From Alphaproteobacteria bacterium (GTDB lineage: Bacteria; Pseudomonadota; Alphaproteobacteria; CACIAM-22H2), in contig JAEULA010000114.1 in NCBI GenBank assembly GCA_016793165.1, positions 1-64,000 on the forward strand: 64,000 nucleotides of DNA. The letters are read 5' to 3'. The notes below the pieces were generated by a model that saw nothing but the letters and a program-made list of their open reading frames with translations, was not told the origin of the DNA and did not search any database. Both the position numbers and the translations under genes were made by a program. Shown piece by piece: positions 19,733 through 41,302 of the stretch (its first letter is position 1; each line of letters opens with the position of its first letter).

Positions 19733-19754
19733 TCCCTCCCGATTCGGGGAGGGA
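19733..19754. terminator. Perfect inverted repeat after the hydantoinase-like gene
   Basis: TCCCTCCC (19733-19740) and GGGAGGGA (19747-19754) form an 8-bp stem around GATTCG, ending six bases past the hydantoinase-like stop. No U-tract follows on the minus strand. The flanking text (GGCCGCTTCGCGGCTTGTCC at 19716-19735) has its own small CGCTTCGCGG fold. The unit may be a dispersed intergenic repeat or a rho-independent-like 3' end. Confidence 0.45.
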
Positions 19755-19759
19755 GGGGT

Positions 19760-22518: not shown

Positions 22519-23523
<1,005 letters not shown>

Positions 23524-23527
23524 CGGC

Positions 23528-24838: not shown

Positions 24839-25026
24839 CGGCGGGCTCCCGGTATCGCGAGGATGGCGGCCGGCTCGACCTCCTTCGCCCGCCAGCGCGG
24901 GATCCGCGCGACGGTCTGCTCGAGGCTCTCCGTCTGCGCGCGCAGGCGCTCGAGCGCCGCCGCGTCCAGGTCGGCCAGGCCGAGGCGCGCGGCCATCGCG
25001 CGGATCTCGTCGTGGGTCCAGCTCAT
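24823..25026 (-). CDS. GatC/AtzG-like small amidase partner (67 aa)
   Basis: 67 aa. The pattern IRAMAARLGLADLDAAALER (residues 8-27), a central amphipathic helix, then KEVEPAAILAIP matches the fold layout of GatC-related small proteins, such as AtzG that pairs with the amidase AtzE in cyanuric acid breakdown. Its ATG overlaps the upstream amidase stop as ATGA (25026-25023) and its end overlaps the downstream amidase start, so it sits exactly between two amidases, with which it probably forms a complex. The family assignment rests on pattern and context, not on an alignment. Confidence 0.72.
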   Translation of the reverse strand: MSWTHDEIRAMAARLGLADLDAAALERLRAQTESLEQTVARIPRWRAKEVEPAAILAIPGARRCPTA

Positions 25027-26444
25027 GAGTCGTCTCCCATCGGCCGGCGATCGCGCCACGGCGTCGCCCTTTCGTAGGCGGCGGCGACGCGCAGCACCGT
25101 CGCCTCGTCCCAGAATCGCCCGGCGATCTGGAGATTGAGCGGCAGGCCCTCGGGCGAGAAGCCGTTGCACAGCGACAGCGCCGGATGGCCGGACAGGTTG
25201 AACGCGGCCATCGCCGACTGGCCGGTGAACGCGACGACCGCCTCGCCGTCCTCGAAGCGCGGGGCGATGCGCGTGGCGCCGCAGCAGACGACCGCGTCGC
25301 AGGCGGAGATCGCGTCGTCGAGGGACGCGGCCAACTCGCGCCGCCAGCGCATCGCGCGCAGGTAGTCGGCGGCCCGCAGCAGCGCCCCGCCCATCATCTT
25401 GTCGCGCAGCGCGCGCCCCATCTCGGCATGGCGCTCGACGAAGTCCCGCTCGTGGATCGAATAGGACTCGGCCGCGTTGACGACGCGCGAGCAGGCGCGG
25501 AAGTCGTTGAGGCCGGCGTCGAGCTCGAGCTCGACGATCGTCGCGCCGAGCCGACGGAACACGTCGATCGCCGCCTCGAAGCCGGCGACGATCGCCGGCT
25601 CGCCCGCCACGTCGCGCGTGTGGAAGCGACGGATCACGCCGAGGCGGAGCCCCGCGACGCCCTGGCCGAGCCCGGCGGAGAAGTCGGGCACCGGCCGGTC
25701 CGCGCAGGCCGGATCCGCCGCGTCGTGCCCGGCGATGACCTGCAGCAGGATCGCGGCATCCTCGACCGTCCAGGCCAAGGGGCCGATGTGGTCCTGCGTC
25801 CAGCAGTTGGGCTGCACGCCGGCGCGGCTCACGCGGCCGTAGGTCGGCTTGAGGCCGACGACGCCGCAGCCCGCGGCGGGCAGGCGCACCGAGCCGCCGG
25901 TGTCGGAGCCGAGCGCGGCCATCGCGGTGCCTGCCGCCACCGCCGCGCCGGGGCCCGTGCTCGAGCCGCCGGTGAATCGCGTGGTGTCCCAGGGATTGCG
26001 CGCCGGCTCGAAGGGCAGGTCGAAATGCACCGCGCCGGTGCCGGTGCCGTACTCGTAGGTGTTGAGCTTTCCCAGCAGGATCGCGCCGGCATCGCGCAGC
26101 CGCGCGTGCGCCGTGGCGTCGACGTCCGGCACGTGGTCGAGCATGAGGCGCGAGGCCGCCGTCGTGCGGATGCCGCGGGTGTAGAAATTGTCCTTCAGCC
26201 CGTACGGAATGCCGTGCAGGGGCCCGCGCCAGTCGCCGCGCATGATCGCGGCCTCGGTATCGCGCGCGGCCGCGCGGGCGCGATCGGCGAGCACCGTGAT
26301 GTAGCTGTGGATGCGCGGGTCGACGCGCGCGATGCGGTCGAGATGGGCATCGACCAGCTCGACCGGCGACAGCCGGCGCGCCCGGATCAGGCGGCCCGCC
26401 TCGGCGACGGTGAGGAAATGCAGGGCGGTGGCGGTGCTCGTCAT
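25023..26444 (-). CDS. Amidase-signature family hydrolase (GatA/AtzE-like)
   Basis: 473 aa. Catalytic residues are Lys84 in GIPYGLKDNFYTRG, Ser162 in FTGGSSTGPGAAVAAG and Ser185 in GSDTGGSVRLPA. Length and the FSPEGLPLNLQIAGRFWDEA C-terminus fit the GatA/AtzE branch. It is the first gene of the minus-strand amidase operon, followed by the coupled GatC-like gene, so this is the more likely partner of that small protein. The gene is divergent from the AtuA-like gene with 176 bp between. The substrate is unknown; it is only about as related to the second amidase as two distant family members are. Confidence 0.92.
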   Translation of the reverse strand: MTSTATALHFLTVAEAGRLIRARRLSPVELVDAHLDRIARVDPRIHSYITVLADRARAAARDTEAAIMRGDWRGPLHGIPYGLKDNFYTRGIRTTAASRLMLDHVPDVDATAHARLRDAGAILLGKLNTYEYGTGTGAVHFDLPFEPARNPWDTTRFTGGSSTGPGAAVAAGTAMAALGSDTGGSVRLPAAGCGVVGLKPTYGRVSRAGVQPNCWTQDHIGPLAWTVEDAAILLQVIAGHDAADPACADRPVPDFSAGLGQGVAGLRLGVIRRFHTRDVAGEPAIVAGFEAAIDVFRRLGATIVELELDAGLNDFRACSRVVNAAESYSIHERDFVERHAEMGRALRDKMMGGALLRAADYLRAMRWRRELAASLDDAISACDAVVCCGATRIAPRFEDGEAVVAFTGQSAMAAFNLSGHPALSLCNGFSPEGLPLNLQIAGRFWDEATVLRVAAAYERATPWRDRRPMGDDS

Positions 26445-26620
26445 GTCTCGCGGCTAGCGATAGCACGGCCGCGCGCGCGGTATCGACATCGCGCAGCGCA
26501 CGACGCCAATTCCGTTTCTGCGGGCGAAGAAAGCGGCCTAACGTGCCGTCGAAACGATCGACCGTCATCGGCCCTGCCGCGCGGGCGGTCGGGGTTGCGG
26601 GCCATCGAGGGAGTCGCGGC

Positions 26621-27979
26621 GTGCGCGAGTTCAAGTTGCTGTCGACGAGCGGGCTGCTCGGCTACGGATTTCCCGAGGCTTCGCTCCAGGCCGGGCTCGC
26701 GCGCGAGCCCGACATGCTCGGCGTCGACGGCGGCAGCACGGATCCCGGCCCCTACTATCTCGGCTCCGGCAAGTGCCTGAGCTCGCGCCTGGCGATGAAG
26801 CGCGACATCGGCCTGATGCTCCGCGGCGCGATCGCCAATCGCATCCCGCTCGTGATCGGCAGCTGCGGTGGAGCCGGCGGCGAGCCGCATCTCCAGGCCG
26901 TGGTCGAGATCGTTCGCGAACTCGCCCGCGAGCACGGCCTGCATTTCAGGATGGCGGTCATCCATTCCGAGCAGGACAAGGCGACGCTGAAGTCGCGCCT
27001 GGCGGCGGGTCGCATCAAGGCGCTGCGCAACGCGCCGCATCTCGACGATGCGGCGATCGACCGGGCGACGCGCATCGTCGGCATGATGGGCGCCGAGCCG
27101 TTCATGAAGGCGCTCGACGCCGGCGCGCAGGTCGTTCTCGCGGGGCGCGGCAGCGATCCCGCCCCCTGGGCCGGCAGCGCGATGCGCGCGCAGCTGCCGC
27201 CGGGCCCGGCCTGGTACGCGGGTAAGATGCTGGAATGCGGTGCCACCGCCTCGGTGCCCAAGGGGCACGACTGCCTGATCGCGACCGTGCGCGAGGATTC
27301 GGTCGAGGTCGAGCCGACTAATCCGATCCGGCGCTGCACGCCGCTGTCGGTGGCCAACCACTCGCTCCACGAGAATGCGAGCCCGATCCATCACATCGAG
27401 CCCGGCGGCATCCTGGACACCGAGCACTGCCGCTTCGAGGCGGTGAGCGATCGCGCAGTGCGCATCTCGGGCATGCGCTGGCTGCCGCAGCCCTACACGG
27501 TCAAGCTCGAGGGCGCCGAGCTCGCCGGCTATCGCGCGGCGACGGTCTGCGGCACGCGCGACCCGCTGCTCATCGGCCAGTTCGACTCCTTCCTCGTCAC
27601 GGTCCGGGCGTCGGTGCAGGAGAAGGTCGCGGCCTTCGGGATCGCGCCCGACCAGTACAAGCTGGTCTTCCGCGTCTACGGCCAGTCCGGCGTGATGGGA
27701 CCGGCCGAGATCGTGAAGGAGATCCGCTCGCACGAGCTCGGCATCCTGGTCGAGGCACTGGCCGACCGGCAGGAGGTCGCCAATGCGGTGCTGTCGGTGG
27801 CGCGCGTGACGCTGCTGCACACCGACTTCCCGGGGCGGCTCTGCCGCGAGGGCAACATGGCCTTCCCGTTCTCGCCCTCGGACATGGAGCTCGCGCCGTC
27901 CTACCGCTTCAGCGTCTTCCATGTCGTCGAGCCCGACGACCCCTGCGAGATGTTCCCCATCGAGTACGAGACGATCTGA
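26621..27979 (+). CDS. AtuA-like family protein (acyclic terpene utilization AtuA/DUF1446)
   Basis: 452 aa. The N-terminal segment LLGYGFPEASLQAGLAREPD, GVDGGSTDPGPYYLGSGK, IGSCGGAGGEPHLQA is conserved in the AtuA/DUF1446 family; the central MGAEPFMKALDAGAQVVLAG and C-terminal VNHS/ENASPIHHIEPGG regions agree. The biochemical role is not established; relatives sit in acyclic terpene, leucine and other catabolic operons. The start is GTG 26621, with GAGGGAG seven bases upstream; an ATG at 26543 would add a poorly conserved leader. It is coupled (TGATG) to the DUF4387 gene, the common genomic partner of this family. Confidence 0.82.
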   Translation: MREFKLLSTSGLLGYGFPEASLQAGLAREPDMLGVDGGSTDPGPYYLGSGKCLSSRLAMKRDIGLMLRGAIANRIPLVIGSCGGAGGEPHLQAVVEIVRELAREHGLHFRMAVIHSEQDKATLKSRLAAGRIKALRNAPHLDDAAIDRATRIVGMMGAEPFMKALDAGAQVVLAGRGSDPAPWAGSAMRAQLPPGPAWYAGKMLECGATASVPKGHDCLIATVREDSVEVEPTNPIRRCTPLSVANHSLHENASPIHHIEPGGILDTEHCRFEAVSDRAVRISGMRWLPQPYTVKLEGAELAGYRAATVCGTRDPLLIGQFDSFLVTVRASVQEKVAAFGIAPDQYKLVFRVYGQSGVMGPAEIVKEIRSHELGILVEALADRQEVANAVLSVARVTLLHTDFPGRLCREGNMAFPFSPSDMELAPSYRFSVFHVVEPDDPCEMFPIEYETI

Positions 27980-28290
27980 TGCCCCGGATCCGCGACATCG
28001 CCAAGGTCTGCAAGAGCAAGAACGCCGGCCCGTTCGAGCTCACCCTGGACGTGGTGTTCGACACCGCCGAGCTGTTCGAGAAGGTGCGCGCCGCCGGCGT
28101 GCTGGGGCCGGCCCTGATCGCGCGGCTCTACGACGTCGCCGAGGCCGACGTGCTGTTCACGCCCTATCCCGCCGGCTTCGCCTTCAAGGCGACGATCCCG
28201 CGCCGGATCCCGTCGGGCGACATCGGCGACACCGACATCTACGGCGCCCAGCAGCACGCGCCGCTGCTCGACGTCGAGATCCCGATCTAG
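27979..28290 (+). CDS. DUF4387 family protein
   Basis: 103 aa. DUF4387 hallmarks are AKVCKSKNAGPFELTLDVVF near the start and SGDIGDTDIYGAQQHAPLLD at the end. The function is unknown. Its ATG shares a base with the TGA of the AtuA-like gene, so the two are translated together and probably act as a complex. No signal peptide or membrane segment is seen. It converges on the deacetylase pair after 64 bp, in which CCCGCC/GGCGGG (28300-28313) is the only notable palindrome. Confidence 0.85.
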   Translation: MPRIRDIAKVCKSKNAGPFELTLDVVFDTAELFEKVRAAGVLGPALIARLYDVAEADVLFTPYPAGFAFKATIPRRIPSGDIGDTDIYGAQQHAPLLDVEIPI

Positions 28291-28354: not shown

Positions 28355-29266
28355 TCAGGGGGACGCGGGACCCGTCGCAAGCACGTGGCGTGCGACCTCG
28401 GCGGTCGTGGTGCGCCACACCTCGGCATGACCGGCGAGCCGCTCGAGGGCCGCGTCCAGGTAGCGGATCCGATGCGGCATGCCGATCAGCCAGGGATGCA
28501 GGTGGAGCGCGAAGAAGCGCCCCGAGGCGGCACCTTCGTCCCACAGCGTGGCGAAGGCCTCGCCGACGATGTCCGGATAGCGCGGCGTGAGCAGCCGGCG
28601 GTGCCAGAGCAGCTGCACATCGTCCCACTCGGACTGGTTCGGGATCGAGACGAAGGGGCGGCCGACGGTCATGAGATAGGGCTGGTCGTCGTTGGGCCAG
28701 TCGACGACATGGGTGAGCCCGGCCTCGGCCAGCAGTGCCGGGGTGCGGGTGGACTCGCCGTAGTCCTGTCCCGCCCAGCCCTCCGGGCGCGTGCCGGTCG
28801 CGCGATGCAGCGCCTCGATCGCTCCCGCGATGAAGTCGCGCTCCTCGGCTCCGCTCATGCGGCTCGTCAGCATGCGCGTGGCGTGGTCGCCGTGGCCGAT
28901 GAACGACGCGCCGCGTTCGAGGCAGGCGTCGATCAGCTGCGGATAATGCCCGGCGACCGCCGAGCCCGCCGCGACGGTGGCCTTGATGGCGTAGCGGTCG
29001 AGCAGCTCGAGAACGCGGAACACGCCGATGCGGTTGCCGTACTCGCGCCAGGTGTAGGCGCGGTACTCGGGCGTGAAGGTGCCGTAGATGTCCTTGAAGC
29101 GCGGATCGCGGACGGCGTCGGCGGGGGGCTCGAGCTCCCAGTGCTCGAGATAGAGCACGACGCACGATGCGACGCGCGCGCCGCCGGGCCAGCGCAGCGC
29201 CGGGCGCTCGGGCAGCGGCGAATAGGGATAGAGCGCGTGGTCCATGCCCCGCTTGCGCGTGGTCAC
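28355..29266 (-). CDS. Polysaccharide-deacetylase-fold amidohydrolase (PuuE/allantoinase-like)
   Basis: 303 aa, NodB-like barrel. Landmarks are RVASCVVLYLEHWELEPPAD, YTWREYGNRIGVFRVLELLD, FIGHGDHATRMLT, GWAGQDYGESTRTPALLAEA and FALHLHPWLIGMPHRIRYLD. The segment REYGNRxGVFRxLELLD is typical of the PuuE allantoinase-like subgroup rather than of peptidoglycan or chitin deacetylases, and no signal peptide is present, so a cytoplasmic amide hydrolase of small N-compounds is likely. The start is GTG 29266, overlapping the upstream gene's stop as GTGA; ATG 29245 is an internal alternative. Confidence 0.82.
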   Translation of the reverse strand: MTTRKRGMDHALYPYSPLPERPALRWPGGARVASCVVLYLEHWELEPPADAVRDPRFKDIYGTFTPEYRAYTWREYGNRIGVFRVLELLDRYAIKATVAAGSAVAGHYPQLIDACLERGASFIGHGDHATRMLTSRMSGAEERDFIAGAIEALHRATGTRPEGWAGQDYGESTRTPALLAEAGLTHVVDWPNDDQPYLMTVGRPFVSIPNQSEWDDVQLLWHRRLLTPRYPDIVGEAFATLWDEGAASGRFFALHLHPWLIGMPHRIRYLDAALERLAGHAEVWRTTTAEVARHVLATGPASP

Positions 29267-30204
29267 TGCGCGGCCCCTGCGCGCCGGTCGCGCGGCGCGC
29301 GCCGCGGCGCCTCGTTCGCGAGATGCCGCTCGATCAGCGGCAGGTGATGGGCGATGTACCAGTCCGCGATTTCCTCGCCGGTCGCCTTCCACACGCCCTC
29401 GTGCCCCAGGATGTAGGCGAGCGCGCGATCGAGATGCCGGATCCGGTGCGGCTGTCCCATCATGTAGGGGTGCAGGGCGATGCACATCACGCGGCCGCTC
29501 TCCGCACCCTCGCGCCAGACCACGTCGAAGTGGTCGGTGATCATGCGCGCGAATTCCTCGGCCTCGATCGCGTGGCGATAGACCATCGCGTCGTTGATAT
29601 CCATCTGGTACGGGATCGTGATCAGCCGCCCCGAGCGCGTCTTCATCGGGAACGGCTGATCGTCGTGGTACCAGTCGCAGTAGTACTTGATGCCGGCCTC
29701 GGCGACGAGGTCGGGCGTGTTGTGCGTGAAGGTCGCCGCGGGCGAGAACCAGCCCGCGAAGTCGCGGCCCGTGAGGCGCCGATGCGTGGCGATGCAGTCG
29801 GCGATGACCGCGCGCTCCTCGGCCTCGCTCATGCCCCAGTGGTACTGCGTGTTGTAGATGCCGTGGCACATGACGTCCCAGCGCCGCCGCTCCATCGCGG
29901 CGAGGATCTCCGGGTAGTGCTCGAACACGGCCATGCTCAGCGACACGGTGCAGCGGATGTCGTGGCGGTCCATGACCTCGAACATCCGCCACAGGCCGAC
30001 GCGATTTCCGTAGTCCTTGCCGCCGTAGCCGAGCACGTCGGGATGCGGCGAGCGCGGCCAGGGATCACGGGATCGGATCGGATCCGGCAGGTACTCGTAA
30101 TGTTCGATGTTGGGCACGACCCACAGGGCGACGCGCGCGTCGCCCGGCCAGCGCAGGCGGGGGCGCGTGCCGATCGGCGAATAGACGACTCGGTCCGGTT
30201 CCAT
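29263..30204 (-). CDS. Polysaccharide-deacetylase-fold amidohydrolase (PuuE/allantoinase-like), second copy
   Basis: 313 aa, paralogue of the downstream gene, with which it overlaps by four bases. Shared landmarks are RWPGDARVALWVVPNIEHYE, YGNRVGLWRMFEVMDRHDIR, CHGIYNTQYHWGMSEAEERA, GWFSPAATFTHNTPDLVAEA and IALHPYMMGQPHRIRHLDRA. It lacks a signal peptide. The pair may form a hetero-oligomer or act on related substrates. The gene is divergent from the oxygenase/MmgE operon, 83 bp apart. Confidence 0.82.
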   Translation of the reverse strand: MEPDRVVYSPIGTRPRLRWPGDARVALWVVPNIEHYEYLPDPIRSRDPWPRSPHPDVLGYGGKDYGNRVGLWRMFEVMDRHDIRCTVSLSMAVFEHYPEILAAMERRRWDVMCHGIYNTQYHWGMSEAEERAVIADCIATHRRLTGRDFAGWFSPAATFTHNTPDLVAEAGIKYYCDWYHDDQPFPMKTRSGRLITIPYQMDINDAMVYRHAIEAEEFARMITDHFDVVWREGAESGRVMCIALHPYMMGQPHRIRHLDRALAYILGHEGVWKATGEEIADWYIAHHLPLIERHLANEAPRRAPRDRRAGAAQ

Positions 30205-30287
30205 GCGCGATCCGCGATTGTCGATGCGAAGGCAGCGTGCCACGTTTCGCCGCGACGCGGGAAGCAAGCAGCGCAGGGCACGACGTC

Positions 30288-31286
30288 ATGACCGAGATCC
30301 ACGAGCCGCCGGCCGTTCCGGTGATCGACTGTTCGGCGTTCGGGTCCGACGACGTCGCGGCGAGGCGGCGCACGGCGCGCGCCGTCGCGGAGGCCTGCGA
30401 GCGGATCGGATTTCTCGTCGTCACCGGGCATGGCGTCGCGCAGGAGGTGGTCGACCGCGCCTTCGCCGTCGGCCTGTCCTTCTTCGACGCCGACGCGCAG
30501 GCCAAGCGGCGGGCGGCGCCGCCGCAGTCGATCGTGCCGCGCGGCTATCACGGCTTCGCCTCGAAGCGGCTGTCGCGCACGATCGGCATCGAGACCCCGC
30601 CCGACCTGCGCGAGCAGTTCTATCTCGGCCCGCTCGACGACTTCGCCGATCGCTACGCGGCCATCCCCGAGGCGGGCGCGTTCTACCGGCCCAACATCTG
30701 GCCCGACGAGCCGGCGGCCTTCCGGCCGGTGATGACGGAGCTCTACCGCGCGCTCGAGGGCCTGAGCGGCCGGCTGATGCGCGGCTTCGCGCTCGGCCTG
30801 GGCATCGACGAGCGGTTCTTCGACGACAAGATCGACGCGCATTTCAGCACCTGCGCGATCAACCACTATCCCGCGCCGACGCGGCCGCCCGAGCCGGGCC
30901 AGCTGCGCGCCGGCGCGCACAGCGATTTCGGGAGCCTGACGATCCTGCTGACCGACGATGCGCCGGGCGGCCTGCAGGTCGAGGCGGCTCCGGGCGTCTG
31001 GCACGACGTGCGGCCGGCGCGCGGCCAGTTCGTCGTGAACATCGGCGACATGATGGCGCGCTGGACCAACGACCGCTGGCGCTCGACGATGCACCGCGTC
31101 GTCAATCCGCCCACCTCGCTGGCGAGCCGGAGCCGCCGGCAGTCGATCGCGTATTTCCTGCATCCCAACTACGACGCGACGGTCGCCTGCATCCCGACCT
31201 GCGTGGCGCCGGGCGCGGCGCCGACCTACGCGCCGATCCGCGCCGGCGACCACATGCGCATGAAGATGGAACGGCGGATCGGATGA
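30288..31286 (+). CDS. 2-oxoglutarate/Fe(II)-dependent oxygenase (isopenicillin-N-synthase-like family)
   Basis: 332 aa. The iron triad is His211, Asp213 (GAHSDFGSLTILLTD) and His269 (STMHRVVNPP); 2-oxoglutarate-binding RxS is Arg284-Ser286 in RSRRQSIAYFLHP. The N-terminal VPVIDCSAF and RIGFLVVTGHGV are the DIOX_N domain. Family members hydroxylate, desaturate or cyclise small molecules. ATG 30288 gives the normal domain start. Its TGA overlaps the ATG of the MmgE/PrpD gene, so the two are coupled, which suggests they act in one pathway. Confidence 0.9.
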   Translation: MTEIHEPPAVPVIDCSAFGSDDVAARRRTARAVAEACERIGFLVVTGHGVAQEVVDRAFAVGLSFFDADAQAKRRAAPPQSIVPRGYHGFASKRLSRTIGIETPPDLREQFYLGPLDDFADRYAAIPEAGAFYRPNIWPDEPAAFRPVMTELYRALEGLSGRLMRGFALGLGIDERFFDDKIDAHFSTCAINHYPAPTRPPEPGQLRAGAHSDFGSLTILLTDDAPGGLQVEAAPGVWHDVRPARGQFVVNIGDMMARWTNDRWRSTMHRVVNPPTSLASRSRRQSIAYFLHPNYDATVACIPTCVAPGAAPTYAPIRAGDHMRMKMERRIG

Positions 31287-32659
31287 CCGGCCTTGCGGAA
31301 CGCGCGGCGGCATGGCTCGCGGAGCTGCGCTGCGAGGACCTGCCGGCGGACATCGTCGCCGACGCGAAGCTGCGGATCCTCGACACGCTGGGCCTGATCC
31401 TCGGCGCCACGGCCTCGCCGATCGGGCGCGCGGTGCGCGCCGGCGCACTCGCGATGGGGCAGGGCGACGAGGCGCGGATGCTCGGCTACGGCGACCGCAC
31501 GACGGCAATGGCCGCGGCGCTGGTCAACGGCACGCTCGCCCATGCCGCGGATTTCGACGACACCCACAACCGCTCGGTCATGCACGCCAGCGCCCCGACC
31601 GTCGCGACCGCGATGGCGCTGATCGGACCCTGCGCGCTGTCCGGGCGCGAGCTGATCGCGGTCGTCGCCGGCGGCATCGAGCTGAATTGCCGCCTCGGCA
31701 TGGTGACGCCCGGGGCCTTCCATCGCTCCGGCTTCCATCCGACCGGCGTCATCGGCGCACTGGTCGCGGCCATGATGGCGGGCCGGCTCTACGGCCTGGC
31801 GCCGCGCGTGACGGCCTCGGCCGTCGGCATCGCCGGCAGCCAGGCGGCAGGCCTGCTCGAGGCCTACGAGGACGGCAGCTGGGCGAAGACCTTGCATCCG
31901 GGTTGGGCCGGGCATTGCGGCATCGCCGCGGCGCTGCTCGCGCGTGCGGGCTTCACCGGCCCGGCCTCCGTGCTCGAGGGGCGCTTCGGCGTCTACCGCG
32001 CGCATGTCCAGGACCCGCGGACGCCGATCGAGCTGACGCGGATCACCGACCGGCTCGGCACGCAGTGGGAGGCGCGCGAGAACTCGTTCAAGCCGTATCC
32101 GTGCGCGCACGCGATCCACCCCTTCATCGATGCCGCCATCGGGCTGCACGCCGGGGGGCTGCGCGCGGCGCAGATCGACCGGGTCTCGCTGCCGCTGTCG
32201 CCCTATCTGATGCCGGTGATCGCGGAGCCGCGCGCCGCGAAGCTGCGGCCGGTGACGCCGACGCATGCCCGCGCAAGCCTCGCGTTCTGCGTCGCCGCGG
32301 CCCTCGTGCACGGCCGTTTCGACGAGACCCTGCTCGACGACGCGGCGCTCGCGGACTCCGCGGTGCTGGAGCTCGCCGGGCGGATCGACTGCGTGCCCGA
32401 CCCGTCGCCGCCGCCGTCGGGCCAGTTCCGCGGCATCGTCGAGGTCGCGACGCGCGACGGCCGGCGCGTCGCCGGCAGGCTCGACCACAATCGCGGCAGC
32501 CGCGAGAACCCGATGTCGCGTGCCGAGCTCGAGGCGAAGTTCCGCGCGGGTGCCGCCGTCGTGTTCGACGCCGCGCGCGCCGACGCGATCATCGCGGCGA
32601 TCGACGGGCTGGAGGCGGCCGGCGACGCGGCGGCCCTGGTGCGGCTCTGCGTGCCGTAG
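31283..32659 (+). CDS. MmgE/PrpD family protein (copy 1 of 4)
   Basis: 458 aa. Typical landmarks are KLRILDTLGLILGA, LVNGTLAHAADFDDTHNRSV, SGFHPTGVIGALVAAMMAGR, AGSQAAGLLEAYEDGSWAKT, LHPGWAGHCGIAAALLARAG, KPYPCAHAIHPFIDAAI and NPMSRAELEAKFRAGAA. The superfamily contains 2-methylcitrate dehydratase, cis-aconitate decarboxylase and iminodisuccinate epimerase; the exact reaction cannot be told. It starts inside the oxygenase stop (ATGA) and converges on the nitroreductase fusion gene, leaving four bases between the stops. Confidence 0.9.
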   Translation: MTGLAERAAAWLAELRCEDLPADIVADAKLRILDTLGLILGATASPIGRAVRAGALAMGQGDEARMLGYGDRTTAMAAALVNGTLAHAADFDDTHNRSVMHASAPTVATAMALIGPCALSGRELIAVVAGGIELNCRLGMVTPGAFHRSGFHPTGVIGALVAAMMAGRLYGLAPRVTASAVGIAGSQAAGLLEAYEDGSWAKTLHPGWAGHCGIAAALLARAGFTGPASVLEGRFGVYRAHVQDPRTPIELTRITDRLGTQWEARENSFKPYPCAHAIHPFIDAAIGLHAGGLRAAQIDRVSLPLSPYLMPVIAEPRAAKLRPVTPTHARASLAFCVAAALVHGRFDETLLDDAALADSAVLELAGRIDCVPDPSPPPSGQFRGIVEVATRDGRRVAGRLDHNRGSRENPMSRAELEAKFRAGAAVVFDAARADAIIAAIDGLEAAGDAAALVRLCVP

Positions 32660-32663
32660 CGGC

Positions 32664-34037
32664 TCACCGCGACGCGGACTTCGCCACGCGCGCGACGTAG
32701 AGCCGCGCGAACCGGCGCAGCCAGCCGTCGACGCGGGTGGCGTCGCCCGCCGCGGCCAGCGAGATGCCGAACTCCTCGACGATCGCGAAATGCGCGGCGA
32801 GCCGCGTGCGGACGGTCGCCGCCGGCAGCGGCGCGAAGGGCCCCTGGTTGGGGACCATCTCGCGCGAGAGGCGGCGGCGATAGTAGAGCCCGTAGCGCGA
32901 ACGGCTGTTGCGGGCGCTGATCACGGCGATGCCGCCCGGCTTCAGCACGCGCGCGACCTCGGCCAGGATCGTCGAGGTCTCGGGCATGTGCTCGAGCACC
33001 TGCGGCAGGAATGCCGCGTCGATGCTGGCGTCGGCATGGGGAAGTCGTCCGGCGGCGAACAGTTCGGCATGGACGTTCGCGCCGGACAGGCCTTCCTGGC
33101 GCAGCCGCTCCAGGATGAAGAGGTGGTTGTGCGGCGACAGCTCGGCGAGGTGCAGGTGCACGCCGGCCCCGTAGCGGCGCCGCAGCTCGGTGGAGTAGGT
33201 GCCGCCCCAAGGCATCACCTCCAGCAGATGCGCCCCGTCGGGCAGGTCGGGCAGCGTCGCGATCTCGAGTGTGGTCGCGTCGCCCTGGCGGCGGGACCGG
33301 TAGACGCCGGCGAGCGGCGACTTGGCCCAGACCGCGTAGCCGCGGAAATCCGCGATGCGATCCCAGCCCCAGGCCGCGGGATTCCACTCGGCGAAGGGAT
33401 TGTCTGAGTTGCGGATCCGCCAATACGGATAGGCGGGCGCCGGCCTTGCGGGATACAGCGCGTGGGCCGGGCGCTCAAACCGGTTCCATGACCGCGTCTC
33501 CGCCGGCGGACGGCGCGGGGCCTTGATCTTGGGCGCCGACGGCTTCGGCCGGCCGATCGCGAGCGCGCCCTGGATCTCGAAGGTGCCCGGAACGCCCAGC
33601 ATCGCGGCAAGGGCGTCGGTATCGCCGATGCCGGCATTCCAGATGCACGCGTAGCCGCGCAGATGGGCGCTCAGCATCATGTGATAGCAGGCGCCGGCCA
33701 CGCTCTGGACGATGGAGAACTTGTCGTGCGTCCAGCCCTTCTGGAAGCACAGGTAGATGAGCGCCGAGCAATGGGCGAAATGCAGGTTGCCGCCGGAGAT
33801 GTCGCGTGCCCGCAGCTTCAACTCGGGCTCGCTCACGACGATGAAATGCCAGTTCTGGTGGTTGCAGGACGACGGCGCCTCGACGCCGTCGCACAGGATC
33901 GCCTCGATCTCGGCGCGATCGATGGGGCTGCCGTCGAATTCGCGGCAGGAAAATCGCGCGGCCAGCCGGGCGAGGATGGCATCGGCCGGCGTCCCGGGAA
34001 TCGAGGCCGGGGGCGGCGGCGGTGCGGACGGGTTCAT
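32664..34037 (-). CDS. Nitroreductase-methyltransferase fusion protein
   Basis: 457 aa with two domains. Residues about 18-165 are nitroreductase-like: RFSCREFDGSPIDRAEIEAI, APSSCNHQNWHFIVVSEPE and GYACIWNAGIGDTDALAAML match FMN-binding segments. After a proline-rich linker (166-200) and a connector, residues about 266-400 are a class I SAM methyltransferase: degenerate motif I LLEVMPWGG, then QVLEHMPETSTILAEVARVL and KPGGIAVISARNS. ATG 34037 has AAGG about nine bases upstream; ATG 34079 lacks such a site. The frame is open across the junction, so this is a true fusion in this sequence. The substrate is unknown; it is divergent from livK. Confidence 0.85.
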   Translation of the reverse strand: MNPSAPPPPPASIPGTPADAILARLAARFSCREFDGSPIDRAEIEAILCDGVEAPSSCNHQNWHFIVVSEPELKLRARDISGGNLHFAHCSALIYLCFQKGWTHDKFSIVQSVAGACYHMMLSAHLRGYACIWNAGIGDTDALAAMLGVPGTFEIQGALAIGRPKPSAPKIKAPRRPPAETRSWNRFERPAHALYPARPAPAYPYWRIRNSDNPFAEWNPAAWGWDRIADFRGYAVWAKSPLAGVYRSRRQGDATTLEIATLPDLPDGAHLLEVMPWGGTYSTELRRRYGAGVHLHLAELSPHNHLFILERLRQEGLSGANVHAELFAAGRLPHADASIDAAFLPQVLEHMPETSTILAEVARVLKPGGIAVISARNSRSRYGLYYRRRLSREMVPNQGPFAPLPAATVRTRLAAHFAIVEEFGISLAAAGDATRVDGWLRRFARLYVARVAKSASR

Positions 34038-34195: not shown

Positions 34196-35365
34196 ATGAA
34201 GCTCATTCGATCCATCATGGCGGGCGCGGCGCTGATCGCCTTCGGTGCGGCGGGCGCCCTGGCGCAGGAGACCCTGAAGATCGGCGCCATCGGCAGCCTG
34301 TCCGGCGGCGGCACCGCCTGGGGCCTCGCGATCCAGCGCGGCACCGAGCTCGCGATCGACGAGGTCAACTCGACCGGCGGCCTCAAGGTCGGCGACAAGT
34401 CCTACAAGATCGAGATGATCATGTACGACGACCAGTACAACGCGCAGGGCGGCAAGACCGCCGCGGAGCGGCTGGTCCACCAGGACAAGGTGAAGTTCAT
34501 CATCGGCCCGATCGGCTCGGGCCCCGTCCTGTCGACGGTCTCCGTGACGACGCCGGCCGAGGTGCTCGTGCTCTCGAACGGCTATGCGCCGGGCATCCTG
34601 CGCAACGAGGCCAAGGCGCCCTACAACTTCCGCATGACCAACACGAACGACGAGTACTCGGAGGCGTTCGTGAAGTGGGTCAAGGAGGGCCTGCCCAACG
34701 CCAAGAAGATCGGCTTCATCGTCCCCAACGACGCGATCGGCCAGCAGGTCGCGCCGGGCCTGAAGAAGATCTACGAGGCCGCCGGCTTCGAGGTTTTCTA
34801 CGAGATGTACGAGCGCGGCTCGAAGGAATTCATCCCGCTGCTCACCCGCATGATCGCGGCGCGCGTCGACACCTTCGACGTCAACTTCAATGCGCCGGGC
34901 GAGGCCGGGCTGCTGGTGCGCCAGGCGCGCCAGGCGGGCTTCCGCGGCCCGATCATCCAGGCCGGCGGCCCGTCGGTGCCGGAGATCTTCGAGGTCGCGG
35001 GCGGCCTCGCCAAGGGCTTCCTGTCCTACGAGATGTTCGACTTCTCGTCGGAGGTCGGCCAGAAGCTGACCAAGGCCTACGAGGCGAAGTACGGCAAGGG
35101 CATCATCAACTCGCAGCTGCCGGCCTTCTACAACGCCACGCGGATCCTGTTCGAGGCGCTCAAGCGCGCCGGCACGACCACCGACGTCAAGAAGGTGCGC
35201 GACCAGGTCGAGGCGCTCGAGGGCTGGGATACCGGAATCTACGGGCCGGTGCGCTGGACGGGCACGGAGAAGTACGGCGTCAAGCACCAGCTGCTGCTGC
35301 CCTTCTTCATCGTCGAGCTGCAGGAAGACGGCACGACAAAGACCCGCGCCCGGGTCGTTCCCTGA
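34196..35365 (+). CDS. livK: Branched-chain-amino-acid-type ABC transporter substrate-binding protein
   Basis: 389 aa. The Sec signal peptide MKLIRSIMAGAALIAFGAAG ends at ALA before QE. The mature protein is a Peripla_BP_6 (LivK/J type) protein: LKIGAIGSLSGGGTAWGLAI, ELAIDEVNSTGGLKVG, KFIIGPIGSGPVLS, RMTNTNDEYSEAFVKWV. It is the first gene of a complete five-gene transporter. Despite the name, this family binds many ligands (amino acids, amides, urea, aromatic acids); the enzymes around it hint at amide- or amine-type ligands, by inference. Confidence 0.92.
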   Translation: MKLIRSIMAGAALIAFGAAGALAQETLKIGAIGSLSGGGTAWGLAIQRGTELAIDEVNSTGGLKVGDKSYKIEMIMYDDQYNAQGGKTAAERLVHQDKVKFIIGPIGSGPVLSTVSVTTPAEVLVLSNGYAPGILRNEAKAPYNFRMTNTNDEYSEAFVKWVKEGLPNAKKIGFIVPNDAIGQQVAPGLKKIYEAAGFEVFYEMYERGSKEFIPLLTRMIAARVDTFDVNFNAPGEAGLLVRQARQAGFRGPIIQAGGPSVPEIFEVAGGLAKGFLSYEMFDFSSEVGQKLTKAYEAKYGKGIINSQLPAFYNATRILFEALKRAGTTTDVKKVRDQVEALEGWDTGIYGPVRWTGTEKYGVKHQLLLPFFIVELQEDGTTKTRARVVP

Positions 35366-35389
35366 TCTGAGTCGGGACGGCGATAGATC

Positions 35390-35421
35390 GCGCGCCGCCG
35401 GGCGAAGGTCCGGCGGCGCGC
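35390..35421 (+). repeat. Stem-loop between livK and livH (12-bp perfect stem)
   Basis: GCGCGCCGCCGG (35390-35401) pairs with CCGGCGGCGCGC (35410-35421) around an 8-nt loop. It lies 24 bases after the binding-protein stop and before the permease gene. With no T-run it is more likely a partial attenuator or 3'-end stabiliser that raises binding-protein level relative to the membrane subunits. Confidence 0.75.
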
Positions 35422-35439
35422 TGCGCTTCAGGCTCCGAC

Positions 35440-36369
35440 ATGCTCGACGCCCTCTTCGGCCCCATCGGCCTGTTCTTCACCAATCCGATCCTGCTCGGGC
35501 AGATGATCGTGAACGGCGTCAGCCTGTCCGCGATCTACGTGCTCGTGGCGCTGGGCTTCACGCTGCTGTTCGGCATCATGCGGGTCGTCAACTTCGCGCA
35601 CGGCGAGTTCGCGATGCTCGGGGGCTTCTCGCTCTACTACCTGTACGGCGGCTTCACGATCCCCTGGCTCGGCCTGACCATCAAGCTGCCCTGGCTGATC
35701 GCCGTGCCGCTGGCGGCCCTCGCGGTGGCCGTCCCGGCGCTGGTGCTGGAGCGCCTCGTCTTCCGCTGGTTCTACCAGCGCATGTTCCAGAGCATGATCG
35801 GCCTGATGGGGCTGAGCATGATCATGGTGTTCGGCAGCCTGCTGATCTGGGACGCGCATGAGCGCCAGGTGCCGGCCGCCTTCACGCGGATGATCGAGCT
35901 CGGCGAGGTGCTGCTGCCGCTCGACCGCCTCGTCGTGATCGGCGTGGCGATGGCGACGCTGGCGGCCTTCTACCTGTTCATCACCCATACCCGCGCCGGG
36001 CTCGCGATGCGCGCCGCGGCGCAGGACCTGGAGATCGCCGAGACCCAGGGGATCGACACGCGCAGCATCTACCGCATCGCCTTCTTCGTCGCCGTGCTGC
36101 TCGCGGCGCTGGCCGGCGCGCTGTTCGCGCAGACCTACACGGTGTCGCCCTTCATGGGCGAGCGCCCGCTGATGGTCGCCTTCATCGTCGTCATCCTCGG
36201 CGGCATGGGCAGCATCCCCGGCGCGGCGCTGGGCGGCATCATCCTCGGCTTCACCGAGAGCTTCCTCGGCACGATGTACGGCGCCGCGGTCTCGGCCTTC
36301 GCGTCGTTCGGCGTGGTGATCCTGCTGCTGATCTTCCGCCCCTGGGGCCTGCTGGGGACACCGGAATAG
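35440..36369 (+). CDS. livH: Branched-chain-amino-acid-type ABC transporter permease LivH
   Basis: 309 aa, multi-pass membrane protein. Diagnostic stretches are SLSAIYVLVALGFTLLFGIM, RVVNFAHGEFAMLGG, IDTRSIYRIAFFVAVLLAAL and VVILGGMGSIPGAALGGIIL. It forms the translocation channel with LivM. ATG 35440 follows the 74-bp gap with the stem-loop; livM begins two bases after its stop. Confidence 0.95.
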   Translation: MLDALFGPIGLFFTNPILLGQMIVNGVSLSAIYVLVALGFTLLFGIMRVVNFAHGEFAMLGGFSLYYLYGGFTIPWLGLTIKLPWLIAVPLAALAVAVPALVLERLVFRWFYQRMFQSMIGLMGLSMIMVFGSLLIWDAHERQVPAAFTRMIELGEVLLPLDRLVVIGVAMATLAAFYLFITHTRAGLAMRAAAQDLEIAETQGIDTRSIYRIAFFVAVLLAALAGALFAQTYTVSPFMGERPLMVAFIVVILGGMGSIPGAALGGIILGFTESFLGTMYGAAVSAFASFGVVILLLIFRPWGLLGTPE

Positions 36370-36371
36370 CC

Positions 36372-37349
36372 ATGACGAGCGCGAGCCTCGCCGCCGCGCG
36401 CGGCGCCACCGGCCGCTCGAGCGGCCACCGATGGGCGATCGCCGCCGTGGCGGCGGCGCTGGCGCTGTGGCCGCTGCTGACCCAGGACAAGTTCTTCCTG
36501 CATGTCGGCACGCGGCTCTGCTTCGCGGCGATCGGCGCCGCGAGCCTCCACCTGATCATCCGCACCGGCCACGTCTCGCTGGGCCACACGGCGTTCATGG
36601 GCGTGGGCGCCTACACGAGCGTCTACCTCGTGATGCAGCTGAAGCTGCCGTTCCTGGCCGGGCTCGTGGCCGCGACCGGGGCGTCGGCGCTCCTCGCGCT
36701 TGCGATCGGCCCGGTGATCCTGCGCCTGACGGGCAAGTACTTCGTGCTGATCACCTTCCTGCTCGGCGAGATCGCGCGCATGGTCTATGTCGACTGGCGC
36801 AGCGTCACCGGCGGCGCCAACGGGATCTTCGAGATCCCGCCGCCCGCGCCGGTCTTCGCCGAAAAGCTCTGGTACTACTATCTCGCGCTGGCCGCGGCGG
36901 CGGCGGTCGTCGCCTTCTGCGGGCGGCTGCTGAACTCCGAGGTCGGCCGCGCGATGGAGTCGATCCGCGAGGGCGAGCGGCTCGCCGAATGCTCCGGCGT
37001 CCCGGTGATCCGCACGAAGATCACCGTCTTCGTCATCGCCTGCGCGCTGGTCGGCTTCCAGGGCTCGCTCCAGGCGCATTACGAGACGCTGATCAGCCCG
37101 CAGCTCTACTCCTCGCTGGAGTCGCTGAACTACGTGATCATGAACGTGATCGGCGGCATGCACACGCTCGTGGGGCCGCTGGTCGGGGCCGCGTTCATGA
37201 TCATCGTGCCGGAGCTGCTGCGCGACTACGTCAACGCACAGCACATCCTGTTCGGCATCATCCTGATCGTCGTCATGGCGGGCCTGCCGACCGGGCTCGT
37301 CGGCATGGGATCGAAGCTGATCGCGGCGCTGCGCGGGGGCTCGCGATGA
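36372..37349 (+). CDS. livM: Branched-chain-amino-acid-type ABC transporter permease LivM
   Basis: 325 aa membrane protein. LivM features are IRTGHVSLGHTAFMGVGAYT, LRLTGKYFVLITFLLGEIAR, VDWRSVTGGANGIFEIP, ESIREGERLAECSGVPVI and NYVIMNVIGGMHTLVGPLVG. It pairs with LivH. Its TGA overlaps the livG ATG (ATGA at 37346-37349). Confidence 0.95.
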   Translation: MTSASLAAARGATGRSSGHRWAIAAVAAALALWPLLTQDKFFLHVGTRLCFAAIGAASLHLIIRTGHVSLGHTAFMGVGAYTSVYLVMQLKLPFLAGLVAATGASALLALAIGPVILRLTGKYFVLITFLLGEIARMVYVDWRSVTGGANGIFEIPPPAPVFAEKLWYYYLALAAAAAVVAFCGRLLNSEVGRAMESIREGERLAECSGVPVIRTKITVFVIACALVGFQGSLQAHYETLISPQLYSSLESLNYVIMNVIGGMHTLVGPLVGAAFMIIVPELLRDYVNAQHILFGIILIVVMAGLPTGLVGMGSKLIAALRGGSR

Positions 37350-38125
37350 GCACGCTGCTGGAGGTCGAGGGCCTTTCGCGCAACTTCGGCGGCCTGGCCG
37401 CGGTCAGCGGGTTGGGGCTCGATGTCCAGGAGCGCGAGGTCTTCGGCATCATCGGCCCGAACGGCGCGGGCAAGACGACCGCGATCAACCTGATCAGCGG
37501 CGTGATCAAGCCGTCGTCGGGCGTCGTGCGCTTCCGCGGCGAGGCGGTCACCGGCCTGCCGCCGCACCGCCTGGTGCGCAAGGGCCTGGCGCGGACCTTC
37601 CAGGCGACGACGGTCTACGGCCAGCGCAGCGTGTACGAGAACTGCCTCCGCGGCGCGTATCTCCATCTCTATCCCGGCTTCCTCGGCACATTCCTGCACA
37701 CGGCGGCCGCGCGCGCGATGCGCGCCGAGGCCGATGCGCGCATCGAGGAGGTGCTGGGATGGCTCGGGCTGACGGCGGCGGCCGACACGATCGCGAGCAA
37801 CCTGCCCTACGGCGCGCAGAAGACGCTCGGCCTCGCCATCGCCCTGGTCGCGCAGCCGTCGCTGGTCATGCTCGACGAGCCCGCAGCCGGGCTGTCGGCC
37901 GAGGAGGCCGACCATGTGCGCGACACGATCCGCCGGCTGCGCGAGCGCGGCATCGCCGTCGTCGTGATCGACCACAACATGCGCTTCATGCGCGACATCT
38001 GCGACCGCATCTTCGTCATGCATCACGGCCAGGAGCTCGCCCGCGGCACGCCCGACGAGGTGCTCTCCGATCCCACCGTGATCCAGGCTTACCTCGGCCG
38101 GGCCTATGCCAAACCTGAAGCTTGA
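37346..38125 (+). CDS. livG: Branched-chain-amino-acid-type ABC transporter ATP-binding protein LivG
   Basis: 259 aa. Walker A is GPNGAGKTT in FGIIGPNGAGKTTAINLISG, and Walker B LVMLDEPAAGLS is present. The LSxGxQ region is altered: ASNLPYGAQKTLGLAIAL, the LPYGxQ form usual in LivG. The C-terminal IFVMHHGQELARGTPDEVLS, VIQAYLG is standard. It overlaps livF by 20 bases. Confidence 0.95.
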   Translation: MSTLLEVEGLSRNFGGLAAVSGLGLDVQEREVFGIIGPNGAGKTTAINLISGVIKPSSGVVRFRGEAVTGLPPHRLVRKGLARTFQATTVYGQRSVYENCLRGAYLHLYPGFLGTFLHTAAARAMRAEADARIEEVLGWLGLTAAADTIASNLPYGAQKTLGLAIALVAQPSLVMLDEPAAGLSAEEADHVRDTIRRLRERGIAVVVIDHNMRFMRDICDRIFVMHHGQELARGTPDEVLSDPTVIQAYLGRAYAKPEA

Positions 38126-38816
38126 CGGACTTCGCGTCCGCTACGGCGCGATCCTCGGCACCGACGGGGTCGGGTTCGAGCTCGCCTCCGGCGAGACGCT
38201 GGCCCTGATCGGCGCCAACGGCGCGGGCAAGTCGAGCACGCTCAAGGCGATCCTCGGCATGGTCGACTATCCGGAGGGCTCGATCACCCTCGACGGCCGG
38301 TCCCTCAAGGGGCTCAGGCCGTCGGAGATCGTGCGGCTCGGCATCGGCTACAGCCCGGAGGGCCGTCGCGTCTTCCCGCAGCTCTCGGTCTACGAGAACC
38401 TCAAGATCGGCGCCTACTCGCGCGATCGCGCCGAGGCGGCCGAGCGCGTCGAGCGCATCTACGCCTATTTTCCCCGGCTGAAGGAGCGCGCGCGCCAGAA
38501 CGCCGGCAGCCTGTCGGGCGGCGAGCAGCAGATGCTCGCGATCGGCCGCGCCCTGATGTCGCGTCCTTCGATCTTCCTTCTCGACGAGCCGTCGCTGGGG
38601 CTGGCGCCGGTGATCGTCGAGCGCATCGGCGACATTCTGCGCGAGATCCAGGCCGCCGAAGGCCTGTCGGTGATCCTCGCCGAGCAGAACGCGGCCTGGG
38701 CTCTGGCGATCGCCCGGCGCGCCGTCATCCTCGAGCTAGGCCGCGTGACGTTGACGGGTCCGGCGTCCGAACTGCTCGAGAACCCGCAGGTCCGCCGCGC
38801 CTATCTCGGGATCTGA
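38106..38816 (+). CDS. livF: Branched-chain-amino-acid-type ABC transporter ATP-binding protein LivF
   Basis: 236 aa. Walker A GANGAGKSSTLKAILGM, the LivF signature GIGYSPEGRRVFPQLSVYEN, ABC signature SLSGGEQQMLAIGRALMSRP and Walker B IFLLDEPSLGLAP are all present. It is the last gene of the liv operon; the deacetylase gene converges on it after a 25-bp gap. Confidence 0.95.
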   Translation: MPNLKLDGLRVRYGAILGTDGVGFELASGETLALIGANGAGKSSTLKAILGMVDYPEGSITLDGRSLKGLRPSEIVRLGIGYSPEGRRVFPQLSVYENLKIGAYSRDRAEAAERVERIYAYFPRLKERARQNAGSLSGGEQQMLAIGRALMSRPSIFLLDEPSLGLAPVIVERIGDILREIQAAEGLSVILAEQNAAWALAIARRAVILELGRVTLTGPASELLENPQVRRAYLGI

Positions 38817-38841: not shown

Positions 38842-39735
38842 TCACGAGCCCGGCACGATCCCCTTCGGCAGCGCGGCGCAATAGCGGGCGATCTCGCCGG
38901 GCGTGGTGATCCAGAGGTCGCTGCGGTGCTCGAGCACGTGCGCCAACGCCCCGCGCAGCGCGTGCAGCCGGAACGGCTGGCCGATGATGAACGGATGCAG
39001 CGAGACGCCGAAGACGAGCGTGCGCTTGCGCGACTGCAGCAGCATCTCGTCGAACTGGTCGACGATCATCTCGGCGAACTCGCGCGCGCTGTGCTGACGG
39101 AAGACGAGCGCCGGCGAGTCGTTGAGCTCGAGCGGGTAGGGCACCGAGAGGATCGGACCGGAGCGCGTGCGCATCCAGAAGGGCTGGTCGTCGGCGGGCC
39201 AGTCCATCACGTAGTCGTAGCCGGCCTCCTTGAGCAGATCGAGCGTGACCCGGCTCTGCGCGAGATAGGGGCCGAGCCAGCCGCGCACCGGCTTCCCCGA
39301 GAGTCGCGCTAGCACCTCGGTGCATTCCGCGATCAGCCGCGCCTCGTCCTCTTCCCAGAGCGTGTCCTGGCGCTCGGCATTGGTCCGGCCGTGGCCGACA
39401 TACTCGTCGCCGCGGCGGTTCAGCCGCTCGACGATCTCGGGGCAGTACTCGAGCGCCGCGGAATTGATGTTGTGCGAGGCGGGCAGCTCGAACTCGTCGA
39501 GCAGGTCGAGGAGGTTCCAGATCCCGACCCGGTTGCCGTAATCGCGCCAGGCGTAGTTGCGCTGGTTCTGCGGCGCGGTTCCCGTCGCGCTGTCCGAGCC
39601 CAGGCCCGCGTTGAACGCGAAATGCTCGATGTTGTTGCAGATCGTGACCGCGAGCCGCTTGCCGTTCGGCCACACGTAGTCGGGGCGGCGATCGATCGGA
39701 ACGAAGTCGTAGCGGTTGTGGGCGGGAAGCTTCAT
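38842..39735 (-). CDS. Polysaccharide-deacetylase-fold amidohydrolase (PuuE/allantoinase-like), third copy
   Basis: 297 aa. It shows the same subgroup pattern as the pair at 28355-30204: YVWPNGKRLAVTICNNIEHF, YAWRDYGNRVGIWNLLDLLD, EYVGHGRTNAERQDTLWEED, GWLGPYLAQSRVTLDLLKEA and FGVSLHPFIIGQPFRLHALR. No signal peptide is seen, so a cytoplasmic amide hydrolase is likely. Placement directly behind the liv operon and divergent from an MmgE/PrpD operon mirrors the first pair, which faces an oxygenase/MmgE operon. ATG 39735 gives the common family start. Confidence 0.82.
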   Translation of the reverse strand: MKLPAHNRYDFVPIDRRPDYVWPNGKRLAVTICNNIEHFAFNAGLGSDSATGTAPQNQRNYAWRDYGNRVGIWNLLDLLDEFELPASHNINSAALEYCPEIVERLNRRGDEYVGHGRTNAERQDTLWEEDEARLIAECTEVLARLSGKPVRGWLGPYLAQSRVTLDLLKEAGYDYVMDWPADDQPFWMRTRSGPILSVPYPLELNDSPALVFRQHSAREFAEMIVDQFDEMLLQSRKRTLVFGVSLHPFIIGQPFRLHALRGALAHVLEHRSDLWITTPGEIARYCAALPKGIVPGS

Positions 39736-39883
39736 GGCGTGTCGACTGGGGCTGGAGTCCGGAGCGGCGCGACGTGGCCGGCACCTTGACAGTGCCCATT
39801 CTCGCCCGTCAACTCGCCGCGCCTCGACATTGCGCGCACGACGTCGCGTCCGGTGCCGAGGCCTGCGATCGAGAGGAAGCGCG
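39736..39883. promoter_or_regulatory. Divergent intergenic region with a consensus -35 element
   Basis: 148 bp between the deacetylase and the MmgE/PrpD gene. A perfect TTGACA lies at 39786-39791 on the plus strand, but no good -10 follows at 16-18 bp (TCAACT at 39809-39814 is weak). GAGAGGAAG shortly before 39884 is the likely ribosome binding site of the MmgE/PrpD gene. Confidence 0.3.
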
Positions 39884-41302
39884 ATGGACACCACGAACCC
39901 GACCGGGCCGCGCGAGCCCGCGACGAGCCCGGAACCGACGGCCGACGGCGTGCGCGCCCTCGTGCGCTGGGCGGCGACGCTCGAGGCCGCGGCGATCCCG
40001 GAGGCCGCGCGGCGGCGCAGCTATCTCATCCTCTGCGACGATATCGCTGCGATCGTCGCGGCGCGCGACGAGGCCGAAGTGGCGGCGCTCCAGGTCCGGA
40101 TGGCGGCCTCGGGCGGCGTCGCCGAAGCGACCGTATTCCGCGGCGGCCGCCCCCGCACCGATCGCTATTCGGCCGCCGTCGCCAACGGCGCCGCCTGCGA
40201 CTGGTGCGAGCTCGACGAGGGTTACCGCAAGGCGACGTGCCATGCCGGGCTCTACACGGTTCCCGCGCTCGTCGCCGAGGCCGAGGCGACCGGCCGGTCG
40301 GTCGAGGACGTGATGCGCGCGCTCACGATCGGATACGAGGTCGCAGCGCGCTTCGCCCGCGCGTTCCACTTCAAGAAGCTGACGCTGCATCCGCATGCGA
40401 GCCTCGCCGCCATCGGCGCCGCGGCCGGGATCGCGGCGCTGCGCCGCGTGCCCGAGGCGCAGTTCCTCGCGGCGGTGACCGCCGCCGCAACGATGGTCGC
40501 GCCCGGGCCGTTCAACCACGCCGTCACGGGCGCCCTCGTGCGCAACGTGTGGCCCGCCGCCGGCGCGTGGTGCGGCATGCGCGCGGTCGACTGGGCGGAA
40601 TGCGGTATCGGCGGTCTCGCGCAGTCGCCCTACCACGTCTTCGTCGACGCCTTCGGGGCCGAGGCGCGCCCCGCGGAGTTCACCGCCGGGCTCGGCGGCG
40701 AATGGGCGGTGGGCGACGGCTATCACAAGCTCCACGCCTGCTGTCAGTACTCGCATTCGGCCGTCGAGGCGACGCTCGACCTGCTCGGGCGTGCCGCGCG
40801 CCGGCCCGAGGCGGGTGCGATCCGGCGCATCACCGTTGAGACCCATCGCCTGGGCCAGACGCTGGACAACCGGTCGCCCGCGACGACGCTCGCCGCCAAG
40901 TTCTCGATGGCGCATATCGTCGCGGCGACCTGCGCGCTCGGCCATGCCGGCGCCGAGGCCTTCGCCGGCTCCACGCTCGCCGATCCGACGATCGCGGGGC
41001 TGCGCGAGCGCGTGACGCTCGCCCCGTTCCTGCCCGAGCAGGCCTGGCCGCTCGACCGGCCCGCGCGCGTCACGCTGGATCTCACCGACGGCACGCGGCT
41101 GCAGGGCGAGTGCCTCAGCGCGCGCGGCGGACCCGACCGGCCGTTCTCGACCGAGGAGATCCTGGCGAAGATCGGCAAGATCACCGCGGGCGTCTATCCG
41201 GCGATGGCCGGCGTGGCGCAACGCCTGATCGCGCTCGATCCGGCGACGGCGCGGCAATCCTGGCGCGACACGGTCGGCGAGATCACCGGAGTGACGGCGT
41301 GA
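39884..41302 (+). CDS. MmgE/PrpD family protein (copy 2 of 4)
   Basis: 472 aa. Landmarks are SYLILCDDIAAIVAARDE, AAVANGAACDWCELDEGYRK, LTIGYEVAARFARAF, LHPHASLAAIGAAAGIAALR, KLHACCQYSHSAVEATLDLL and FSTEEILAKIGKITAGVYPA. The usual HAxDFDDT active-site region of MmgE/PrpD is replaced by ACDWCELDEGYRKA, so substrate or reaction may differ from copies 1 and 3. Reaction unknown. GAGAGGAAG precedes ATG 39884. Its TGA overlaps the ATG of the flavoprotein gene. Confidence 0.87.
   Translation: MDTTNPTGPREPATSPEPTADGVRALVRWAATLEAAAIPEAARRRSYLILCDDIAAIVAARDEAEVAALQVRMAASGGVAEATVFRGGRPRTDRYSAAVANGAACDWCELDEGYRKATCHAGLYTVPALVAEAEATGRSVEDVMRALTIGYEVAARFARAFHFKKLTLHPHASLAAIGAAAGIAALRRVPEAQFLAAVTAAATMVAPGPFNHAVTGALVRNVWPAAGAWCGMRAVDWAECGIGGLAQSPYHVFVDAFGAEARPAEFTAGLGGEWAVGDGYHKLHACCQYSHSAVEATLDLLGRAARRPEAGAIRRITVETHRLGQTLDNRSPATTLAAKFSMAHIVAATCALGHAGAEAFAGSTLADPTIAGLRERVTLAPFLPEQAWPLDRPARVTLDLTDGTRLQGECLSARGGPDRPFSTEEILAKIGKITAGVYPAMAGVAQRLIALDPATARQSWRDTVGEITGVTA

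Follow-up and report, generated by a model that had tools for sequence, protein, structure and literature searches.

We analyzed a 64,000-nucleotide stretch of alphaproteobacterial DNA (hereafter, the window), in which a single uninterrupted reading frame on the reverse strand, with its ATG at 34037 and its stop codon ending at 32664, encodes a 457-residue protein that joins a nitroreductase-like half to a methyltransferase-like half (Table 1). The genes grouped around it span about 18.9-44.0 kb and include three PuuE-like and three MmgE/PrpD genes; no GntR gene lies beside the fusion gene in the window. The hydantoinase/allantoinase-like amidohydrolase is 43% identical to its copy at another locus that carries the fusion (L012), and the CobW/ZigA-like GTPase is possibly a metal chaperone for the metal-dependent hydrolases. 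At 55303-57282 the window also encodes a relative, scoring below the cut-offs, of the caprolactamase beta subunit and acetophenone carboxylase delta, another family of cyclic-amide type.

Table 1. Features of the window around the fusion gene, in order of position.
Feature	Position	Strand	Basis or remark
Isochorismatase-family hydrolase and hydantoinase/allantoinase-like amidohydrolase	18926..21118	-	
CobW/ZigA-like GTPase	22519..23595	-	
Two amidases (PF01425)	23528..26444	-	
AtuA-family protein and DUF4387 protein	26603..28290	+	Pair also in 8 other loci
Second PuuE-like CE4 hydrolase	28355..29266	-	Start approximate
PuuE-like CE4 hydrolase	29263..30267	-	Candidate cyclic imide/ureide hydrolase
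2-Oxoglutarate/Fe(II) oxygenase (DIOX_N and 2OG-FeII_Oxy)	30291..31286	+	Profile match
MmgE/PrpD family protein	31283..32659	+	Profile match
Nitroreductase/methyltransferase-like fusion gene	32664..34037	-	ORF, Pfam, homologues, AlphaFold2 model, fold match
Class-I methyltransferase-fold domain, residues 216-457	32667..33392	-	Pfam, fold, motif comparison
Degenerate motif I EVMPWGGT, residues 273-280	33198-33221	-	
Ordered conserved joint, residues 177-250	33288..33509	-	Alignment and model
Nitroreductase-fold domain, residues 11-191	33465..34007	-	PF00881, invariants, fold, alignment to 3ge5 and 4dn2
LIV-type (branched-chain amino acid family) ABC transporter	34196..38816	+	Binding-protein gene divergent from fusion gene
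Third PuuE-like CE4 hydrolase	38842..39894	-	Start approximate
MmgE/PrpD, FAD-binding dehydrogenase (TcuA/flavocytochrome-c-like), MmgE/PrpD	39884..44027	+	

Pfam searches showed that both halves match known families above cut-off. PF00881 was found with an E value of 3e-19 (70.1 bits, cut-off 23.5), its alignment falling in two stretches, the best at residues 26-80, and Methyltransf_11 matched residues 279-373 (E value 5e-11); four of the six methyltransferase profiles, Methyltransf_11 included, start at residue 279, past the glycine-rich motif I. Every match to a named NCBIfam family was far below its cut-off. Identity as BluB (5,6-dimethylbenzimidazole synthase) was rejected, the TIGR02476 score being 30.7 bits against a cut-off of 150. 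The AlphaFold2 model (pLDDT 87.4, pTM 0.83) matched nitroreductases over residues 11-191 and class-I methyltransferases over residues 216-457, both with Z scores of about 19-20. A sequence-only reading of this DNA had proposed that an FMN nitroreductase-like half and a methyltransferase half share a single chain, and the reading frame, the profiles and the folds bear this out.

Searching with peptides drawn from each half and from the joint, we found 38 homologous loci, which are 48-67% identical over almost the full length and all encode both halves. The entire match lies within one open frame in 36 of these; at L034 the gene is cut by a contig end and encodes both halves up to residue 389, and at L041, in a MAG, there is a frame break. 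Close homologues lacking one half, which the sequence-only reading had held would speak against it, were not found in genome contigs, 385 genomes of the class, 398 genomes of the phylum or plasmids. The sole unfused match in the phylum genomes was a general nitroreductase (L048), and viral contigs yielded no match. With 38 other loci carrying it, a sequencing error or chance join was rejected, and the fusion is confirmed to be real.

Nearly all carriers bear the label Alphaproteobacteria, among them Paracoccaceae/Rhodobacteraceae, Thalassobaculum, Microvirga, Neomegalonema and Falsigemmobacter. The MAG that contains L034 is labelled Pseudomonadales, but the fusion gene of L034 clusters in the tree with that of L032, from Rhodobacterales. 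The fusion is rare, being found in one of the 385 sampled class genomes besides the window's own. Vertical inheritance in the host lineage was rejected, as no homologue was present in three genomes of the same genus or 19 of the same family. This patchy spread suggests horizontal transfer. Alternatively, the window's contig may be foreign or misplaced in its assembly, for which contamination is estimated at 7.8%.

Across 36 aligned sequences, the nitroreductase half contains invariant R28-x-S30-x-R32, P55-S-S-C-N59-x-Q61 and K172/R175/R176. Residues of the first two types are established FMN contacts in the nitroreductase superfamily, and this flavin-site signature could be aligned to the solved nitroreductases 3ge5 and 4dn2, so that FMN use by this half is predicted. 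Small FMN nitroreductases of the PF00881 family, such as these two, resemble the N-terminal half in fold, flavin-site signature and length, but they have no fused methyltransferase-fold domain and are 24-28% identical to it. The near structural relatives also include iodotyrosine deiodinase and cyclodipeptide oxidases. Between the halves, the sequence-only reading had placed a proline-rich linker; instead, the joint has a mean pairwise identity of 66%, is ordered in the AlphaFold2 model, and contains invariant N213, P214, W218, P220 and W223 as well as VWAKSP at 236-241. The proline-rich, disordered stretch is confined to the N-terminus (residues 1-17).

The C-terminal half shares its fold with class-I SAM methyltransferases (CmoM, MitM and TM1293, Z 18.8-19.7; SpnF is a further near relative) as well as the downstream motifs LP..D.S.D, LEH and LKPGG. 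However, it has lost the glycine-rich motif I, [DE]-x-G-x-G-x-G, and the adenine-contacting acid. The sequence-only reading had described motif I (LLEVMPWGG) as degenerate, and in all 36 aligned members it takes the form [ED]-x-[ML]-[PAG]-W-[GS]-G-T, with two of the three glycines replaced, one of them by an invariant tryptophan; five methyltransferases from the window's own genome have D-x-[GA]-x-G-x-G. The position of the adenine-contacting acid (328, assigned through sequence alignment alone) is acidic in just five of the 36 members. That the altered motif is itself conserved speaks for a change of function and against decay.

We considered whether the protein might nevertheless be a true bifunctional enzyme, in which the flavin half would reduce a ring and the second half would methylate the product with SAM despite the odd motif I. 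The fold closely matches those of the active enzymes CmoM and MitM, and the invariance of W277, G279 and T280 indicates that the site is under selection. In addition, E273 and the strand-2 acid E299, at positions normally in contact with SAM, are retained, so the second half may still bind SAM. On the other side, the degenerate motif and the mostly missing adenine-contacting acid make ordinary methylation doubtful, this half has diverged more rapidly than its flavin counterpart (mean pairwise identity of 52% versus 70%), and methyl addition would be ill-suited to the catabolic-looking cluster described below. Flavin redox plus methylation in one chain, as the sequence-only reading had it, is on this evidence unlikely, though it is the strongest of the competing explanations that we weighed. 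The two halves could also catalyse unrelated steps.

Recurrent neighbours were mapped over 6 kb on either side of the gene at each of 39 loci, and over 26 kb for the window. In 34 loci, the gene for a transporter binding protein lies divergently next to the fusion gene (DctP in 31, LivK in three). Genes of TRAP transporters predominate (DctP in 31 of the 39 loci, DctM and DctQ in 30 each), and a LIV-type ABC transporter takes their place in the window and two Microvirga loci, which form one clade (support 100/99), consistent with a single swap of transporter. Hydantoinase/allantoinase-like amidohydrolase genes are found in 30 of the 39 loci, PrpD and FAD dehydrogenase genes in 29 each, and PuuE-like, GntR and PrpB-like genes in 23, 21 and 19, respectively; L017 and L035 have few of these usual neighbours. 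AtuA and DUF4387 genes co-occur, in nine loci, which suggests a two-part enzyme. Linear amide hydrolases vary by lineage, an amidase, an asparaginase-like and a nitrilase-like gene being present in four loci each, and this alternation of three unrelated families points to a pathway that passes through an amide intermediate. The cluster amidohydrolase also has a homologue, with 56% identity, at L062, in a genome (G093) that is 82% complete and in which the fusion protein was not found.

This conserved set of uptake, hydrolase, dehydrogenase and hydratase/lyase-type genes with a GntR gene has a catabolic layout, which leaves little room for the natural-product or modification pathway at which the sequence-only reading had hinted. 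The near structural relatives do include dehydrogenases with the nitroreductase fold, for example the cyclodipeptide oxidase AlbA (PMC11055893), and the natural-product methyltransferases MitM and AtmM match the second half; however, the transporters are of uptake types, the remaining genes belong to hydrolase, dehydrogenase and hydratase/lyase families, and no biosynthetic core gene turned up among the conserved neighbours. We thus consider a biosynthetic role very improbable. Cyclodipeptide oxidase subunit A (AlbA, 8uc3; 9exv) has the nitroreductase fold in common with the fusion protein, at 25-27% identity and a TM-score to the target of up to 0.85. Its substrates are cyclic amides, and another protein contributes to its active site; AlbA functions as filaments with a separate AlbB and belongs to biosynthetic clusters (PMC11055893). 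The fusion protein, by contrast, is one chain in a catabolic-looking cluster; no small partner gene recurs among the clustered neighbour ORFs of at least 80 aa.

A palindrome, GTCAACNGTTGAC, was found with at most one mismatch at 32 sites in 25 of the 38 loci, against about 0.7 sites expected from base composition. In 23 of these 25 loci it immediately precedes the fusion gene, and the sites are intergenic (5808 in L008, 5807 in L012, 5883 in L018, and in 22 further loci); some loci have extra sites ahead of AtuA, PuuE, PrpB or GntR genes. Its presence tracks that of the GntR gene (20/21 loci with it versus 5/18 without, Fisher p 2e-5, a statistic that ignores shared ancestry). These patterns indicate that GTCAACNGTTGAC is probably the operator of a GntR protein that would regulate the cluster. 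In a separate, asparaginase-bearing clade of four loci, AAACTGTTTACAGTTT or its core AACTGTTTACAGTT replaces GTCAACNGTTGAC (L037, 5829-5977; L038, 5857-5971; L039, 5820-5989; L042, 5827-5968). Neither GTCAACNGTTGAC nor AAACTGTTTACAGTTT is present in the window, where the best GTCAACNGTTGAC site in the intergenic region has four mismatches, and the host genome contains no exact GTCAACNGTTGAC.

The combination of uptake, ring hydrolases, an amide hydrolase, a dehydrogenase and hydratase/lyase types leads us to infer that a cyclic imide or ureide is broken down, and we hypothesize, with a little better than even confidence, that the fusion protein performs a flavoenzyme step in this uptake and breakdown with a non-canonical methyltransferase-fold half. 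As an FMN-dependent oxidoreductase, it would reduce or dehydrogenate a small imported ring compound, either the cyclic imide or ureide itself or a precursor. The step is probably an early one, as the position of the gene next to a transporter gene suggests. The nitroreductase half would provide the flavin site and probably dimerise as nitroreductases do, and the joint and the methyltransferase-fold half would probably cap the substrate site or determine its shape; alternatively, they might bind a ligand that is not SAM in the canonical mode. The ring would then be opened by the PuuE-like and/or hydantoinase-like hydrolases, the linear amide or carbamoyl group removed by an amidase, asparaginase-like or nitrilase-like enzyme according to lineage, and the resulting acid routed through the FAD dehydrogenase, the hydratase-type MmgE/PrpD protein and the PrpB-like lyase.

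A precedent for this type of chemistry is nicotinate breakdown in Aspergillus, in which the CE4-type cyclic imide hydrolase HxnM, structurally related by its authors to HpPgdA and thereby to the allantoinase PuuE, works with the amidase HxnN (PMC9304392, PMC8478523). A CE4-type ring hydrolase and an amidase in a catabolic cluster are common to both systems, but the organism and pathway differ, and the PuuE-like proteins here score 131-161 bits for TIGR03212, far below the PuuE cut-off of 424.6. The hydantoinase-like proteins of the cluster are likewise far below the curated AllB cut-off.

A narrower possibility is that the cluster degrades substituted maleimides or succinimides, such as the tetrapyrrole-derived hematinic acid, with the flavin half as an ene-reductase that saturates the maleimide. 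The imide hydrolase-like, half-amide amidase, FAD dehydrogenase, hydratase-type and PrpB-like genes would suit the chemistry of substituted succinates, and the enone reductase CLA-ER is among the relatives of the nitroreductase half. Asp/Glu racemase-family genes are also present in nine loci, and this superfamily includes maleate isomerases. However, the D-hydantoinase-like and N-carbamoyl-amidase-like genes in the cluster fit a ureide equally, and our literature search found no such pathway described. This substrate class is thus distinctly improbable, and maleimides from tetrapyrroles as the substrate are speculation.

In its boldest form, the favoured cyclic imide/ureide reading holds that a repurposed, SAM-free methyltransferase fold forms the substrate site of the nitroreductase to which it is fused, and that the enzyme commits the substrate to an undescribed alphaproteobacterial pathway; we advance this version only tentatively, although we consider it more plausible than bifunctionality. 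We found no description of the fusion or the cluster in the largely open-access literature that we searched. Both superfamilies are well known, but a fusion of the two in which every member has one and the same strictly conserved motif I, damaged though it looks, provides a test case for the re-use of the methyltransferase fold. The apparently undescribed catabolic pathway is testable through the cluster and its palindrome in culturable strains, e.g. Thalassobaculum litoreum. If the SAM-free fold does form the substrate site, the fusion protein would represent a novel type of flavoenzyme, in a pathway for a cyclic imide or ureide that is widespread in nature.
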